DNA of 34,051 bases from Ignavibacteria bacterium (lineage in GTDB: Bacteria > Bacteroidota > Ignavibacteria > Ignavibacteriales > Ignavibacteriaceae). Of the stretch, positions 11,693-21,744 are shown piece by piece. Below the pieces are notes generated by a model. The model made no database searches. It was not told the DNA's origin and saw nothing but the letters and a program-made list of their open reading frames with translations. The position numbers and the translations under genes were made by a program. The stretch lies in contig JAJTBZ010000028.1 in assembly GCA_021286645.1 (NCBI GenBank), forward strand, positions 1 to 34,051. Direction: 5' to 3'. Within the stretch, counting starts at the first letter, position 1. Every line of letters begins with the position of its first letter.

Positions 11693-12580
11693 ATGAAAAA
11701 TTCCATGTTTTCTGCCTGGGTTTTGGCAGCTCGGCCAAAAACTCTTTTGGCGGCATTTGTCCCGGTGATTGTTGGCTCTGCTTTAGCATTCACTGAAAAC
11801 AAAGGTAAACTTTTACCCACACTGGTTTGTTTTTTTTGCTCCGCGATGATTCAAATAGGAACGAACTTTACGAACGATTTATTTGATACGATTAAAGGAG
11901 CTGATACTGATGACCGTCTTGGCCCGGTACGGGCAGTTCACGCGGGCTTAATTACCCGTAAACAAATGACCTGGGCGGTAGCTGTTACCTTTGGAAGTGC
12001 TTTTTTTGCCGGCTTATACCTTGTTTGGCTGGGAGGGTGGTCAGTTTTTATTATTGGTGTTTGTTCGATTATTGCGGGATTAATTTATACCGCCGGGCCA
12101 TATCCTCTGGCGTATAATGGATTGGGAGACGTATTTTCTTTCCTTTTTTTCGGAATTGTAGCAACAATGGGTACATTTTATGTGAACTCATTGGAATGGT
12201 CTTATAGTTCGTTTGTTTTATCTTTACCGGTAGGCGCCCTTATAACCGCCATTTTGGTTGTCAATAATTACCGGGATATCGATCAGGATGCCAGAGCAGG
12301 GAAAAATACACTTGTTGTTAAATTTGGCCGGGCTTTTGCCCGAGCTGAATATATCGGACTCATTGTTTTAGCATATTCTATTCCAATTTATATCTTATTG
12401 GTCCACTCTGGTCAGTTTAATTGGCATGTATTATTTCCATTCTTATCATTGCCTTTTGCCGTGAAATTAGTTCAATTACTCTACAAACTGGAAGGAAAGG
12501 ACCTAAATAAACTTCTGGAACTTACCGCACGGCTTTCCGCAGTTTATGGCCTTTTACTGGCAGCGGGTATTTTGCTGTGA
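11693..12580 (+). CDS. menA: 1,4-dihydroxy-2-naphthoate polyprenyltransferase
   Basis: 295 residues, an integral membrane UbiA-family prenyltransferase that attaches the polyprenyl tail to DHNA to make demethylmenaquinone. The aspartate motif NDLFDTIKGAD is at 61-71 (N61, D62, D65, D71) and the second acidic region NNYRDIDQD follows near residue 190. About eight to nine hydrophobic segments are visible. I chose the ATG at 11693, one base after the menB stop; the same frame is open further upstream to 11612 inside menB, but that extension is basic, overlaps menB by 80 bases and does not look like MenA. Its stop TGA overlaps the GTG start of menC (GTGA). Confidence 0.95.
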   Translation: MKNSMFSAWVLAARPKTLLAAFVPVIVGSALAFTENKGKLLPTLVCFFCSAMIQIGTNFTNDLFDTIKGADTDDRLGPVRAVHAGLITRKQMTWAVAVTFGSAFFAGLYLVWLGGWSVFIIGVCSIIAGLIYTAGPYPLAYNGLGDVFSFLFFGIVATMGTFYVNSLEWSYSSFVLSLPVGALITAILVVNNYRDIDQDARAGKNTLVVKFGRAFARAEYIGLIVLAYSIPIYILLVHSGQFNWHVLFPFLSLPFAVKLVQLLYKLEGKDLNKLLELTARLSAVYGLLLAAGILL

Positions 12581-17266: not shown

Positions 17267-18169
17267 ATGGCATCTCTCTTTTCAAATACTTCTGACACAA
17301 TTTCGATTGTGTTCAATTCTGCTGAACCTCTAAACTTTCTTGCCTCAAATAATATCAAATTGACTTTTCCGGAAATGCTATTCGCATTTGCAGAGCAAAA
17401 GGGGTTAATACATGGTATTGAAGATATAAACGGGCGGGTAAGCATAAGCGGGACAGCCCCGGAAATGGTTTTAGGTGCATACATACTCAATAATTATTCT
17501 CGAGCTTTACAAGCTAAATCGCAAATAGTAAAAATTGCTGAAACAATTCGATATTGTGAATACACGAATGAGGATGCATTGAAAACTGCCATTATCCTTG
17601 AACATTTGTGTAAATCAGGAAGTATTCTGCATCATGAGATTCAGGAAAAAGGGCAACTATCTATTGAAAATATAAATATATTATCAAATGCTATTGAAAA
17701 TCCCGATGAATTTGATGAGATTTGGGAAGACGAAATGAACACTTTTTCGGAAGGAGAAATTTCGTTTGATAATAGACTTTCAGTTTTTAGCAGCTATTCT
17801 GACTGCAATGTAACAGTAATAGAAACGGACTTAAAATTACATCCGGTAACTATTACCAAACAAAGCCAATGCAGTAGAATCTTGTTAGTTCAAAAAGTGC
17901 AAAATGGCCGTTATTTTTCTTTCTTTCTGAAACCACGATATTGGTTTAGTTCAGCAGCAGAACAGAAGCTTATTAAAGAAGGACTTGAATCCCTCGCTGC
18001 GGAATTGAATCAAATGAATTGTGGAAATGCCGGTAGATGGCAGTTGTGTAAGTCTTCGTTATTGAATGATTCATGGGATATTCAATTTTGCAATGAACTT
18101 AACGAACCAATCCCATCACCTGCTGAAGTGTATGAAATAGAAAATATTATTACCAATTATTATATATAA
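17267..18169 (+). CDS. Uncharacterised protein, queG-trxB interval
   Basis: 300 residues with no signal peptide, membrane segment or catalytic motif that I recognise. The protein is acidic in the middle (around residues 145-170, PDEFDEIWEDE) and has seven scattered cysteines without a metal-binding spacing. The C-terminal half, with HPVTITKQSQCSRILLVQ followed by a basic aromatic stretch (FLKPRYWF) and a helix rich in Leu/Glu, recalls from memory an uncharacterised family (possibly DUF6687), but the N-terminal Asn/His/Asp motif I associate with that family is missing, so I do not assign it. It is three bases from queG and 17 bases from trxB, so it is almost certainly expressed with them. Coding character is clear from the packed context. 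Confidence 0.75.
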   Translation: MASLFSNTSDTISIVFNSAEPLNFLASNNIKLTFPEMLFAFAEQKGLIHGIEDINGRVSISGTAPEMVLGAYILNNYSRALQAKSQIVKIAETIRYCEYTNEDALKTAIILEHLCKSGSILHHEIQEKGQLSIENINILSNAIENPDEFDEIWEDEMNTFSEGEISFDNRLSVFSSYSDCNVTVIETDLKLHPVTITKQSQCSRILLVQKVQNGRYFSFFLKPRYWFSSAAEQKLIKEGLESLAAELNQMNCGNAGRWQLCKSSLLNDSWDIQFCNELNEPIPSPAEVYEIENIITNYYI

Positions 18170-19134: not shown

Positions 19135-19138
19135 TTGG

Positions 19139-19171
19139 AAAAGTACCCCGGCTCAGCCGGGGTACTTTTTT
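19139..19171. terminator. Strong bidirectional intrinsic terminator between trxB and the minus-strand unit
   Basis: A perfect 14-bp stem (19139-19152 with 19156-19169, core GTACCCCGGC) around a 3-base loop, with a T-run of six from 19166 on the plus strand and four T residues on the minus strand. It lies between two convergent genes, trxB and the FIST-like gene, and can stop transcription from both sides. Confidence 0.92.
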
Positions 19172-19175
19172 ACAA

Positions 19176-20156
19176 TTATTCTATTAATAAATATACAAGG
19201 GTTTGATTTAGGAGTGTATAGGCTATTTCTCCAAAAGTAATTGGTCCCGTCAAAGCACCCGTTTTTTTACCTTCAAGATTACCATACAGATAATTCAAAA
19301 TACAATTACATGTAAAGAAAGGTAAAAAGGTTTCTTCTTTCATCACCTTTTCAAATTCTGCTGAATAATCAGTAATTGGCTGAGCAATCTTATATTCTAC
19401 ATTTGGGAACACAGGAGCATAGAAGTTAACTTGCTTATTTGTTTCATCGATACTCTGAAAACTGGTGTTAACGAATGCCCCATAATAGTCGGCTACGAGC
19501 GGTAATTGTAGATTAATGTTCTTCTTTGTAAGATACTCAGCAAAATTCCACTCTTCACCATTTACCAGGCATGTAGTTGCAGAAAAGCCGGTTTCCGGAA
19601 ACGTAATAGTATCCCCGGTTCCGGGTTTAAAGAGATTAATAATATCAAGATGAGCGTTCTTTAGGTCAGGAAGTGAACAATGCATGACCATTGCTGAAGA
19701 ATCGGATGCTTCCCCGGTAAGTCCGTTAAATACTTTGGGATTAACTTTCCCGATATCGTCTAAAGAGACACCGGTTATCCAACCTAACAGGGGAGTATTG
19801 TAAATGCCGCTAAAGCCCATCGCATTATTTGCAAAATACAAGTGCATTTTACTAAAAGCCGGTATCAGAATAAAAGAAAAACCATTTATGTATGTTTCAT
19901 CTCCAACCGATTCGATAGTGGTTTCATCATATGCCTTTACGGTAAAAGCATCAACCTCTTCCGGAATGATGTTAACATATAATTTTGTTGTCTCAAAAAC
20001 TCCGCCAACCTCTTCACTCATAAAATATGGAATAGTGCCTCCAATCCAGTTACCCTGTTGTACTTTAGCGAGTAGTTTTTCATCTCCTGCCAATAATAGT
20101 TTCTTCCCCTCGTTGAGCAGATTGTTTACTTCTTCAATTGTATATAAAGTTGCCAT
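19176..20156 (-). CDS. Uncharacterised FIST-like protein (possibly DUF6976)
   Basis: 326 residues, soluble, with no signal peptide. The N-terminal part contains LLLAGDEKLL and GNWIGGTIPYFM; the C-terminal part has FFTCNCILNYLYGNLEG and then GPITFGEIAYTLLNQTLVYL. The end resembles the C-terminal signature of FIST sensory domains (a GFYTYGEI...NQTLV pattern), and the N-terminal glycine segment could be its ligand site, so I read it as a distant FIST relative; this is my inference. I believe such proteins are filed as DUF6976, from memory. FIST domains are thought to bind small ligands in signalling. AGGAGA overlaps the stop codon of the upstream 74-aa gene, so the two are translationally coupled. 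Confidence 0.75.
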   Translation of the reverse strand: MATLYTIEEVNNLLNEGKKLLLAGDEKLLAKVQQGNWIGGTIPYFMSEEVGGVFETTKLYVNIIPEEVDAFTVKAYDETTIESVGDETYINGFSFILIPAFSKMHLYFANNAMGFSGIYNTPLLGWITGVSLDDIGKVNPKVFNGLTGEASDSSAMVMHCSLPDLKNAHLDIINLFKPGTGDTITFPETGFSATTCLVNGEEWNFAEYLTKKNINLQLPLVADYYGAFVNTSFQSIDETNKQVNFYAPVFPNVEYKIAQPITDYSAEFEKVMKEETFLPFFTCNCILNYLYGNLEGKKTGALTGPITFGEIAYTLLNQTLVYLLIE

Positions 20157-20164
20157 ATTCTCTC

Positions 20165-20389
20165 CTATCCAAAAATCTTATGAATATCATTTTGTAATGT
20201 CTTTTCATTCTTTAGAAAATACTCGTGTACTTCTTTGATTTTCTTCTGGACGTTTTCGACCGATGGATCGCTTTTTACCGAAAGGGTTACACGGCCCATA
20301 AAGATCTTTGTGGCAAGGGAAGAAAACTCGTATTTGGTATCGCCACAGACGAGAGCTTTCCATTTGGGATGGGTTGTTGATGGTACCAT
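20165..20389 (-). CDS. Small uncharacterised protein upstream of the FIST-like gene
   Basis: 74 residues, soluble, beginning MVPSTTHPKWKALVCGD. The C-terminal half (VENVQKKIKEVHEYFLKNEKTLQNDIHKIF) is a strong amphipathic helix; the N-terminal part looks like short beta strands. The ATG at 20389 has an AGGAT sequence about nine bases upstream on the minus strand. Its stop TAG is part of the ribosome-binding site TAGGAGA of the next gene, eight bases away. I do not recognise the family. The arrangement suggests a partner or regulatory subunit of the FIST-like protein. Although short, the coupled spacing makes it a credible gene. Confidence 0.7.
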   Translation of the reverse strand: MVPSTTHPKWKALVCGDTKYEFSSLATKIFMGRVTLSVKSDPSVENVQKKIKEVHEYFLKNEKTLQNDIHKIFG

Positions 20390-20430
20390 AATGATGATCC
20401 TGTTAACTAGTGAGAAATTTAAGCTTTGGG

Positions 20431-20489
20431 ATGAAATTATAATTTTTTATTAACAAGTACCGTATTACTTTTGAATAATATAATTTCAT
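20431..20489. repeat. 11-bp inverted repeat in the divergent intergenic region before yqhD
   Basis: ATGAAATTATA at 20431-20441 is exactly complementary to TATAATTTCAT at 20479-20489, 37 bases apart. It lies between the start of the minus-strand small gene and yqhD. It could be an operator pair or chance in AT-rich DNA; its regulator is unknown. Confidence 0.45.
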
Positions 20490-20580
20490 TGGATAAAAAT
20501 CAAGTAATTTTCCTGAAAATAGAGAATTATTTCAGGTTAAAATTTGTTAATTCTATATATATCAATAAAAAGGATTTACA

Positions 20581-21744
20581 TTGAATAATTTTAATTTTTA
20601 TAATCCCGTTAAAATACTATTCGGCAAAGGCAAAATTTCTGAATTACCCCGTGAATTACCCGTTGACACAAGGAAAGTTCTTATAACGTATGGAGGAGGT
20701 AGCATTCTGAAAAATGGAGTTATGCAACAAGTTAAAGCTGCATTGCAAAATTTTGAAGTACTTGAATTCGGAGGTATTGAGCCAAACCCGACATTTGAAA
20801 CCTTAATGAAATGTGTAGAGTTTATTCGCAATAATGAAGTTGATTTCATCCTGGCAGTGGGTGGCGGATCGGTTATCGATGGTACCAAATTCATTTCTGC
20901 GGCGGTGTTCGCAGATGGGGATCCATGGCAAATTATGCTAACACGGGGTGCTGCCATTAAAAAAGCAATGCCCTTTGGTGCGGTATTAACACTGCCGGCA
21001 ACCGGTTCTGAAATGAACAGTGGGGGAGTAGTGACGAGGAAATCCATACAGGCCAAACTTGTTTTCGGAAACTCCCTGGTTTTTCCGAAATTTTCGATTC
21101 TCGATCCTGAAACAACTTATAGCCTGCCGGCTACACAGGTAGCCAATGGCATAGTTGATGCCTATGTACATATAATGGAGCAGTATTTAACGTATCCGGT
21201 AAACGCGGGGCCACAAGATCGTTTTGCTGAAGGATTATTGCAAACTCTCATTGAGGTTGGGCCCCAAACATTAGCAAACCCAAATGATTATGATTTGCGA
21301 GCGAATTTTATGTGGACGGCCACTCTTGCTCTGAACGGACTTATAGGGGCAGGTGTTCCTCAGGACTGGGCTACCCATATGGTAGGTCATGAACTAACAG
21401 CGTTATTTGGGATTGACCATGGTAAAACACTGGCCATTCTTTTACCAGGCATGATGAAAATTAGAAAAATGGCAAAAAGAACCAAACTGGTTCAATATGC
21501 TAAAAATGTATGGAAACTGAGCTCTACCAATGAAGATTTGCTTGTAGAAGAGGCCATCAGGTTAACCGAAGAATTCTTCCAAACCATGACAATCTCAACC
21601 AAATTGTCAGAATATGGAATTACTGAAAAGGATATACCATCAATAATTTCACATCTTGAGTCCCATGGAATGACTGCTCTTGGTGAGCATAGGGATGTTA
21701 CACCTCAGGTTGTAGAATCGGTACTTCGGGTTCAACTTTCGTGA
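20581..21744 (+). CDS. yqhD: Iron-type (group III) NADPH-dependent alcohol dehydrogenase / aldehyde reductase, YqhD-like
   Basis: 387 residues, the same length as E. coli YqhD and clearly similar throughout (starts MNNFNFYNP, contains GGIEPNPTFETL and NGLIGAGVPQDWATHM). YqhD reduces short reactive aldehydes with NADPH and protects against lipid peroxidation products. Metal ligands are D193, H197, H266 and H280; the nucleotide site is GGGS at 38-41 with a second GGGS at 94-97. The start is TTG at 20581 with an AAGGA about seven bases upstream; the next possible start lies further inside the conserved N-terminus. It stands alone, with a divergent unit on its left and its own terminator on the right. 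The strong family match makes lateral transfer or duplication possible. Confidence 0.95.
   Translation: MNNFNFYNPVKILFGKGKISELPRELPVDTRKVLITYGGGSILKNGVMQQVKAALQNFEVLEFGGIEPNPTFETLMKCVEFIRNNEVDFILAVGGGSVIDGTKFISAAVFADGDPWQIMLTRGAAIKKAMPFGAVLTLPATGSEMNSGGVVTRKSIQAKLVFGNSLVFPKFSILDPETTYSLPATQVANGIVDAYVHIMEQYLTYPVNAGPQDRFAEGLLQTLIEVGPQTLANPNDYDLRANFMWTATLALNGLIGAGVPQDWATHMVGHELTALFGIDHGKTLAILLPGMMKIRKMAKRTKLVQYAKNVWKLSSTNEDLLVEEAIRLTEEFFQTMTISTKLSEYGITEKDIPSIISHLESHGMTALGEHRDVTPQVVESVLRVQLS

Follow-up and report, generated by a model that had tools for sequence, protein, structure and literature searches.

Stand-alone FIST sensors are already known. NosP is described, in the available text of two reports (PMC12570481, PMC8846402), as an auxiliary sensor made of a solo FIST domain, and its gene (PA1975) is placed by the consulted portion of a third within the ped/exa alcohol-oxidation cluster, the ped cluster holding the aldehyde dehydrogenase ExaC and the iron-containing alcohol dehydrogenase ErcA/YiaY (PMC12997753). 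In human FBXO22 a helical F-box precedes FIST; residue C326 reacts with aldehyde degraders to give a hemithioacetal, E362 activates this cysteine, and the E362A change abolishes activity, according to the excerpt of PMC13316043, the only match found when the literature was searched for 'FIST domain' together with 'aldehyde'. The E. coli YqhC-YqhD system, in turn, is aldehyde-responsive, and its regulator gene resides beside that of the YqhD reductase (PMC6115493, PMC8262776, both as excerpted).

The locus analysed here belongs to an Ignavibacteria bacterium, and lies in a window (the whole stretch of DNA that was analysed) corresponding to a 34-kb contig from a 3.7-Mb genome, in which no tRNA was found. 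Two genes of the minus strand encode a 326-aa protein of the Pfam family DUF6976 and a 74-aa partner. Like NosP, DUF6976 would be a solo cytoplasmic sensor devoid of an output domain, has the conserved Cys, GE and T residues, and is found near kinases. Yet it is shorter than FIST auxiliary sensors such as NosP, does without their Arg and late His, is not matched directly by a FIST HMM, and is provided with a dedicated helical partner, none being mentioned for NosP in the portions of the reports at hand. Enzyme types of the ped cluster (ExaC, ErcA/YiaY), as far as the excerpt describes them, resemble the DUF6976 neighbours at two loci, L020 and L009. As in YqhC-YqhD, the unit in the window adjoins a YqhD-type reductase gene; however, YqhC is a transcriptional regulator, whereas the window unit itself lacks a DNA-binding domain, and its control of the YqhD-type gene is putative. 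The novelty resides in the dedicated partner domain. The original prediction regarded a stand-alone sensor with a small partner as a little-described arrangement, which holds for the partner and not for the solo sensor, of which NosP is a known example in the available text of PMC12570481 and PMC8846402. The features of the locus are the following.

19136 to 19172, plus strand: terminator-like hairpin located between the DUF6976 gene and the convergent gene for a thioredoxin-reductase-like protein
19176 to 20156, minus strand: DUF6976 (PF22396) protein, FIST-like, 326 aa, assigned by Pfam match and hhalign alignment to FIST
19304 to 19302 and 19229 to 19227, minus strand: codons of DUF6976 C285 and E310, respectively, residues aligned with the Cys and Glu conserved in FIST
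20154 to 20167, minus strand: coupling junction, read from the sequence, with stop TAG at 20167-20165, AGGAG at 20166-20162 and ATG at 20156-20154
20165 to 20389, minus strand: predicted helical partner ('adaptor') domain, 74 aa, without known family; the same domain occurs at 20 of 20 DUF6976 loci
20390 to 20580, no strand: divergent intergenic region of 191 bp separating the partner gene from the YqhD-type gene
20581 to 21744, plus strand: YqhD-type iron-containing alcohol dehydrogenase / aldehyde reductase, divergent, candidate target

Both reading frames, of 326 and 74 aa on the minus strand, were recovered where the original prediction had placed them. The junction reads, on the minus strand, GGA TAG GAGAGAAT ATG, 8 nt separating the stop of the 74-aa gene from the start of the 326-aa gene. 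The AGGAG shares bases with the TAG, and the ribosome site of the large gene does overlap the stop codon of the small gene, as had been proposed; judging from this arrangement, synthesis of the two proteins in a fixed ratio by translational coupling is plausible. Promoter-like consensus sites found on both strands near the divergent intergenic region are not evidence of function, and the terminator-like hairpin is one found against 0.9 expected by shuffles. Elsewhere in the window, the gene at 17267-18169, flanked by a QueG-type gene and the thioredoxin-reductase-like one, encodes a 300-aa protein with a match to Pfam DUF6687 (E 1.9e-10), a family without assigned function.

The 326-aa protein matches DUF6976 over the entire length of the profile (positions 2-320 of 321; E 1.6e-134), at 448.3 bits against a curated cut-off of 27 bits, and the pattern noticed in it is thus not due to chance. 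The C-terminal string singled out in the original prediction is present, and falls where the family is best conserved. Twenty distinct loci above cut-off have been analysed, two of them from one genome (G1011), and G304, T307-F308-G309-E310, Y313 and L316-N317-Q318-T319 are invariant in all 20 homologues, as are H105 and H159. The Pfam entry gives no function, and a literature search retrieved no paper naming DUF6976 or PF22396, nor any report of the partner domain, the fusions or the FIST link. The family is rare and patchy: in genome draws which overlap one another, members were identified in 4 of 395 genomes (phylum-wide draw), in 2 of 92 from the family of G046 and 2 of 245 at class level, above cut-off in 3 of 400 from the phylum of L002, in 2 of 177 and 1 of 98 from two further classes, and in 8 of 356 from the class of G617. 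Three of 72,556 plasmid records carry a copy, and no relative was found among phage and viral-contig sequences. A PDB search with the DUF6976 sequence returned nothing, and one with the profile a single chance row. Two matches below cut-off (L017 and L018, 19-20 bits against 27), short stretches within ORFs of about 506 aa resembling by eye aldehyde dehydrogenases, were excluded ahead of all counts.

The relationship to FIST emerges from profile-profile comparison. The 326-aa protein has no direct match to the Pfam profiles FIST and FIST_C (PF08495/PF10442) at E<=10, and a FIST HMM built here, run against 13 DUF6976 proteins, picked up only that of L006, at E 0.74. By hhalign, the C-terminal half of DUF6976 aligns collinearly with FIST_C. 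The FIST set used comprised the proteins of 58 of 60 loci, L099 and L108 being left out because no clean ORF was obtained from them, and FIST matches that had not been fetched lie outside it. The comparison of 11 DUF6976 with 30 FIST proteins scored 33.7, a value reached by 0 of 150 column shuffles (maximum 25.0), and reversed FIST scored 16.1. For the C-terminal halves the probability was 88.9% with 13 DUF6976 and 58 FIST proteins (a score that 0 of 60 column shuffles equalled), 88.7% with 20 and 58 (P 2.6e-6), and 74.3% in a smaller set, in which 0 of 100 shuffles reached the score. The alignment of the N-terminal halves was not significant, 6 of 100 and 2 of 60 shuffles reaching the score, and cross-pairings of N- and C-terminal halves gave background scores only. 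DUF6976 is probably a distant relative of FIST, not a member of the Pfam FIST family. The FIST-like C-terminal pattern originally predicted is thereby sustained at the level of profiles, not as a direct FIST HMM match. The window genome also hosts an ordinary FIST gene (G000:C98), and FIST and DUF6976 hence coexist.

Within the aligned half, the C-terminal Cys (57/58) and the Glu of GE (56/58) are near-invariant in FIST, and the G (56/58) and the T (53/58) are conserved. Cys, GE and NQT are found in 20/20 DUF6976 proteins, C285 and E310 being the hhalign partners of the FIST Cys and Glu. The FIST Arg at Cys+3 (56/58) is replaced by Asn or Tyr, and the FIST His before N-x-T (48/58) by Leu, in 13 of 13 DUF6976 proteins. 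When the FIST profile was searched against the PDB, FBXO22 was the best match (E 0.005), and the Cys/Glu columns fall on its C326 and E362, counted from the printed start 301; the two FBXO22 residues are the counterpart of the DUF6976 pair.

Structural comparison points in the same direction, with a model of low confidence. The AlphaFold model of the window protein, made with one homologue (pLDDT 40.5), was not used in the fold search, which was run with the model of the L002 fusion protein, built from the window and L002 sequences and itself of low confidence (pLDDT 54.2). In the VIA ranking FBXO22 occupies the top 4 rows, with 180-221 residues aligned, nearly the whole DUF6976 part, and Z 4.9-5.5, of which even 5.5 falls below the level at which the tool is trustworthy. 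Chorismatase comes next, and cyanuric acid hydrolases and RidA/YjgF are found lower; the same groups (chorismatases, cyanuric acid hydrolases, YjgF superfamily) are listed as neighbours of the FIST fold in the available text of the report on the structure of FBXO22 (PMC11185555). Foldseek found no match to the same model at E<=0.001, its rows 1-3 being cyclic amide hydrolases, with FBXO22 at rank 4-5. As to the three-repeat FIST fold, FBXO22 ranks first by VIA, albeit with a low-confidence model, and the lack of any structural match that would have told against the original prediction was not observed. Fused DUF6976 proteins have a small helical domain at the N-terminus, as FBXO22 has its F-box. 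In contrast to FBXO22, the partner has no F-box match and no ubiquitin ligase context, and the likeness in architecture may be due to chance. An F-box identity of the partner, considered because of FBXO22, is unsupported, as no F-box row appeared in Pfam at E<=10.

With the small partner, a new domain of helical type comes into view. For the 74-aa protein, searches of Pfam, NCBIfam, PHROGs and PADLOC all ended without a match above cut-off; the protein is probably helical, since the homologous domain of L002, in the fusion model (the only usable one), forms four helices with pLDDT mostly 70-90. The domain is located directly upstream of DUF6976 on the same strand, or is fused to it, in 20/20 loci. 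The constant association of the small gene with the large one, posed at the outset as a check, was therefore found throughout, and the last 7 of the 20 loci, retrieved once the idea of linkage existed, represent an out-of-sample test. Such universal adjacency or fusion marks the domain as a dedicated partner. Its formats vary. A free short partner is encoded at 11 loci (the window, L004, L005, L007, L009, L021, L079, L118, L120, L123 and L124), and partner and DUF6976 form a single ORF at 5/20 (L002, L019, L119, L121, L122). At 2/20 (L020 and L080) the partner is the C-terminus of a XRE-type HTH protein (HTH_3 E 1.3e-10 and 2.3e-07), in L008 (Ideonella) 2 copies make up the C-terminus of a 373-aa protein, and in L006 the profile detects 4 copies within a 486-aa protein. 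In the 15 unfused pairs the two genes are spaced by about -4 to +13 nt, with the exception of L009 (47 nt), figures that rest on start codons picked by the author. Genome G1011 holds two DUF6976 units, L079 with a free and L080 with a HTH-fused partner, and lets the two formats be compared in a natural setting.

Searched in 11 DUF6976-bearing genomes or records, to which the exclusivity of the partner refers, the partner profile yielded no further match below E 0.096. Tblastn searches of plasmids with the 74-aa partner and the 373-aa Ideonella protein, whose sensitivity is low given the shortness of the partner, revealed no partner-like gene away from DUF6976. A few peculiarities of single loci may be mentioned. 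In L006 (19-1479, the same as L024:7610-9070) the partner copies are found in a row behind an N-terminus that weakly matches the transposase-type family DUF772 (E 1e-5 to 5e-5), and the 486-aa protein is possibly a domesticated transposase piece. The transposase-like look of the N-terminus of the Ideonella 373-aa protein was an impression only, with no Pfam match. The small gene of L007 (Pseudosulfitobacter, 11712-11921) is annotated as 59 aa; if the start is moved ten codons upstream, to a GTG, the conserved N-terminus is regained, and the annotated start is probably too far downstream.

Neighbouring genes, along with the conserved residues, hint at a link to aldehydes. The gene divergent from the unit in the window encodes a protein whose best PDB relatives are YqhD structures (phmmer; 4qgs, 1.1e-140; 1oj7, 1.2e-140), but which scores 562.3 bits against NCBIfam NF011717, below the equivalog cut-off of 645, and is therefore called YqhD-type rather than YqhD. 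Genes for iron-containing alcohol dehydrogenases, aldehyde dehydrogenases (ALDH) or aldehyde:ferredoxin oxidoreductases (AOR) lie within 5 kb of 9 of 20 DUF6976 loci against 1 of 60 control windows (Fisher 6e-6), as scored by phmmer with queries of which six derived from the DUF6976 loci themselves, for an enzyme class picked after the first 13 loci had been viewed. The controls were 60 windows of 11 kb from eight of the genomes, without proteobacteria, and the contigs of L079 and L122 are too short for 5 kb on each side. Counted by lineage, after loci were collapsed by hand on the tree, the figure is 4 of 11 (p 0.0016). Five of the 9 positives (L002, L019, L118, L120, L123) share an AOR-type neighbour and belong to one Chloroflexota clade; 4 of the seven later loci are positive, all of one Chloroflexota clade. 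The assignment is backed by Pfam or annotation at the window, L002, L009, L020, L120, L121 and L123, and is based on phmmer only at L019 and L118. The enzyme gene is divergent from the unit at two loci, the window and L020, the L020 enzyme being close to ExaC (892.7 bits, cut-off 900). No aldehyde enzyme resides within 5 kb at 11/20 DUF6976 loci, and for FIST genes proper an enzyme of this class was located within 1.5 kb at only 2/60 loci.

Signalling genes are also found. Kinase, response-regulator or GGDEF-EAL genes adjoin several DUF6976 loci, and a histidine kinase gene lies within 5 kb at 8/20, 7 strong and that of L079 weak, versus 8/60 controls (p 0.02). The original prediction had put the unit outside any signalling cluster and devoid of a fused output domain, which is correct for the window, where the two flanking genes are not signalling genes, and does not extend to the family, 7/20 loci having a strong histidine kinase within 5 kb. 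KaiB-like and KaiC-like genes were spotted by eye about 4 kb downstream of a DUF6976 gene (L024:13859-15967). On the Pseudosulfitobacter plasmid the DUF6976 unit is followed by CcdA/CcdB and, on the opposite strand, by genes for CHAT, caspase, patatin and serine protease proteins, the caspase matching that of PADLOC at 1.3e-20; the region (L007:13287-23487) looks like a protease-based defence island.

HTH fusions and kinase neighbours argue for a role in signalling, and the universal presence of the partner argues for its being the relay. On balance we lean, from sequence data, towards an auxiliary FIST-like sensor acting via a dedicated adaptor, with aldehydes as the leading ligand class. According to this reading, DUF6976, compact, stand-alone and related to the FIST sensor domain, and the partner would bind each other to make a two-protein sensory unit, in which the four-helix adaptor would pass the state of DUF6976 to an output. 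The adaptor, plausibly made here as a free 74-aa protein by coupled translation, would operate elsewhere fused to the sensor, to HTH, or in multi-copy arrays. The sensor would detect a small reactive metabolite, aldehydes first, most likely through Cys285-Glu310, and the unit may adjust adjoining aldehyde-handling genes, here the divergent YqhD-type reductase. A more ambitious version, which we hold only tentatively and deem rather doubtful as a whole, would make DUF6976, and perhaps the FIST fold generally, an aldehyde (reactive-carbonyl) sensor in which the Cys-Glu pair forms a reversible thiohemiacetal, by the chemistry that aldehyde degraders exploit in FBXO22, with the adaptor relaying to interchangeable outputs (HTH, kinase pathway), and in the window tuning the YqhD-type reductase.

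Aldehydes have against them that the known FIST ligands are heme and NO. The ligand of the same sensor-adaptor architecture might instead be heme/NO, as in NosP, or some other small molecule, and the aldehyde genes would then be incidental. The FIST domains of NosP and CdpA sense NO or heme, as stated in the available text of PMC12570481 and PMC8846402, and the invariance of H105 and H159 and the kinase, response-regulator or GGDEF-EAL genes beside several loci are in line with such a ligand; the over-representation of aldehyde-enzyme neighbours and the Leu taking the place of the late FIST His, a possible heme ligand, are not, and we consider this alternative unlikely. Less probable still is that DUF6976 is an enzyme, acting with Cys-Glu as catalytic pair on an aldehyde or a related metabolite, the small protein serving as subunit or chaperone. 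The fold would be common to chorismatases and cyanuric acid hydrolases, both present among the structure rows, Cys, Glu and two His are invariant, and the neighbours are enzymes of aldehyde metabolism; yet the closest profile relatives are sensors, and the partner-HTH fusions (2/20) and kinase neighbours point to regulation. A horizontally spread toxin-antitoxin or defence-type cassette, which would suit the patchy distribution (4/395 genomes), the coupled small-large gene order and the three plasmid copies, one beside CcdAB and the CHAT/caspase/patatin group, is very improbable, as neither protein matches PADLOC (0 rows at E<=0.01) or PHROG, no phage match or viral-contig relative was found, partner and DUF6976 form one chain in 5/20 loci, and kinase and aldehyde genes are the neighbours.

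FIST domains span bacteria to humans, yet it is only for heme/NO, and in few cases, that the ligand sensed has been established. A branch in bacteria always accompanied by one small adaptor, as the sensor-adaptor reading has it, would represent a tractable system to follow how FIST-like domains relay their signal. If the Cys-Glu pair is the sensing site, this would explain why aldehydes can recruit FBXO22, and a class of natural ligands for the fold would suggest itself.
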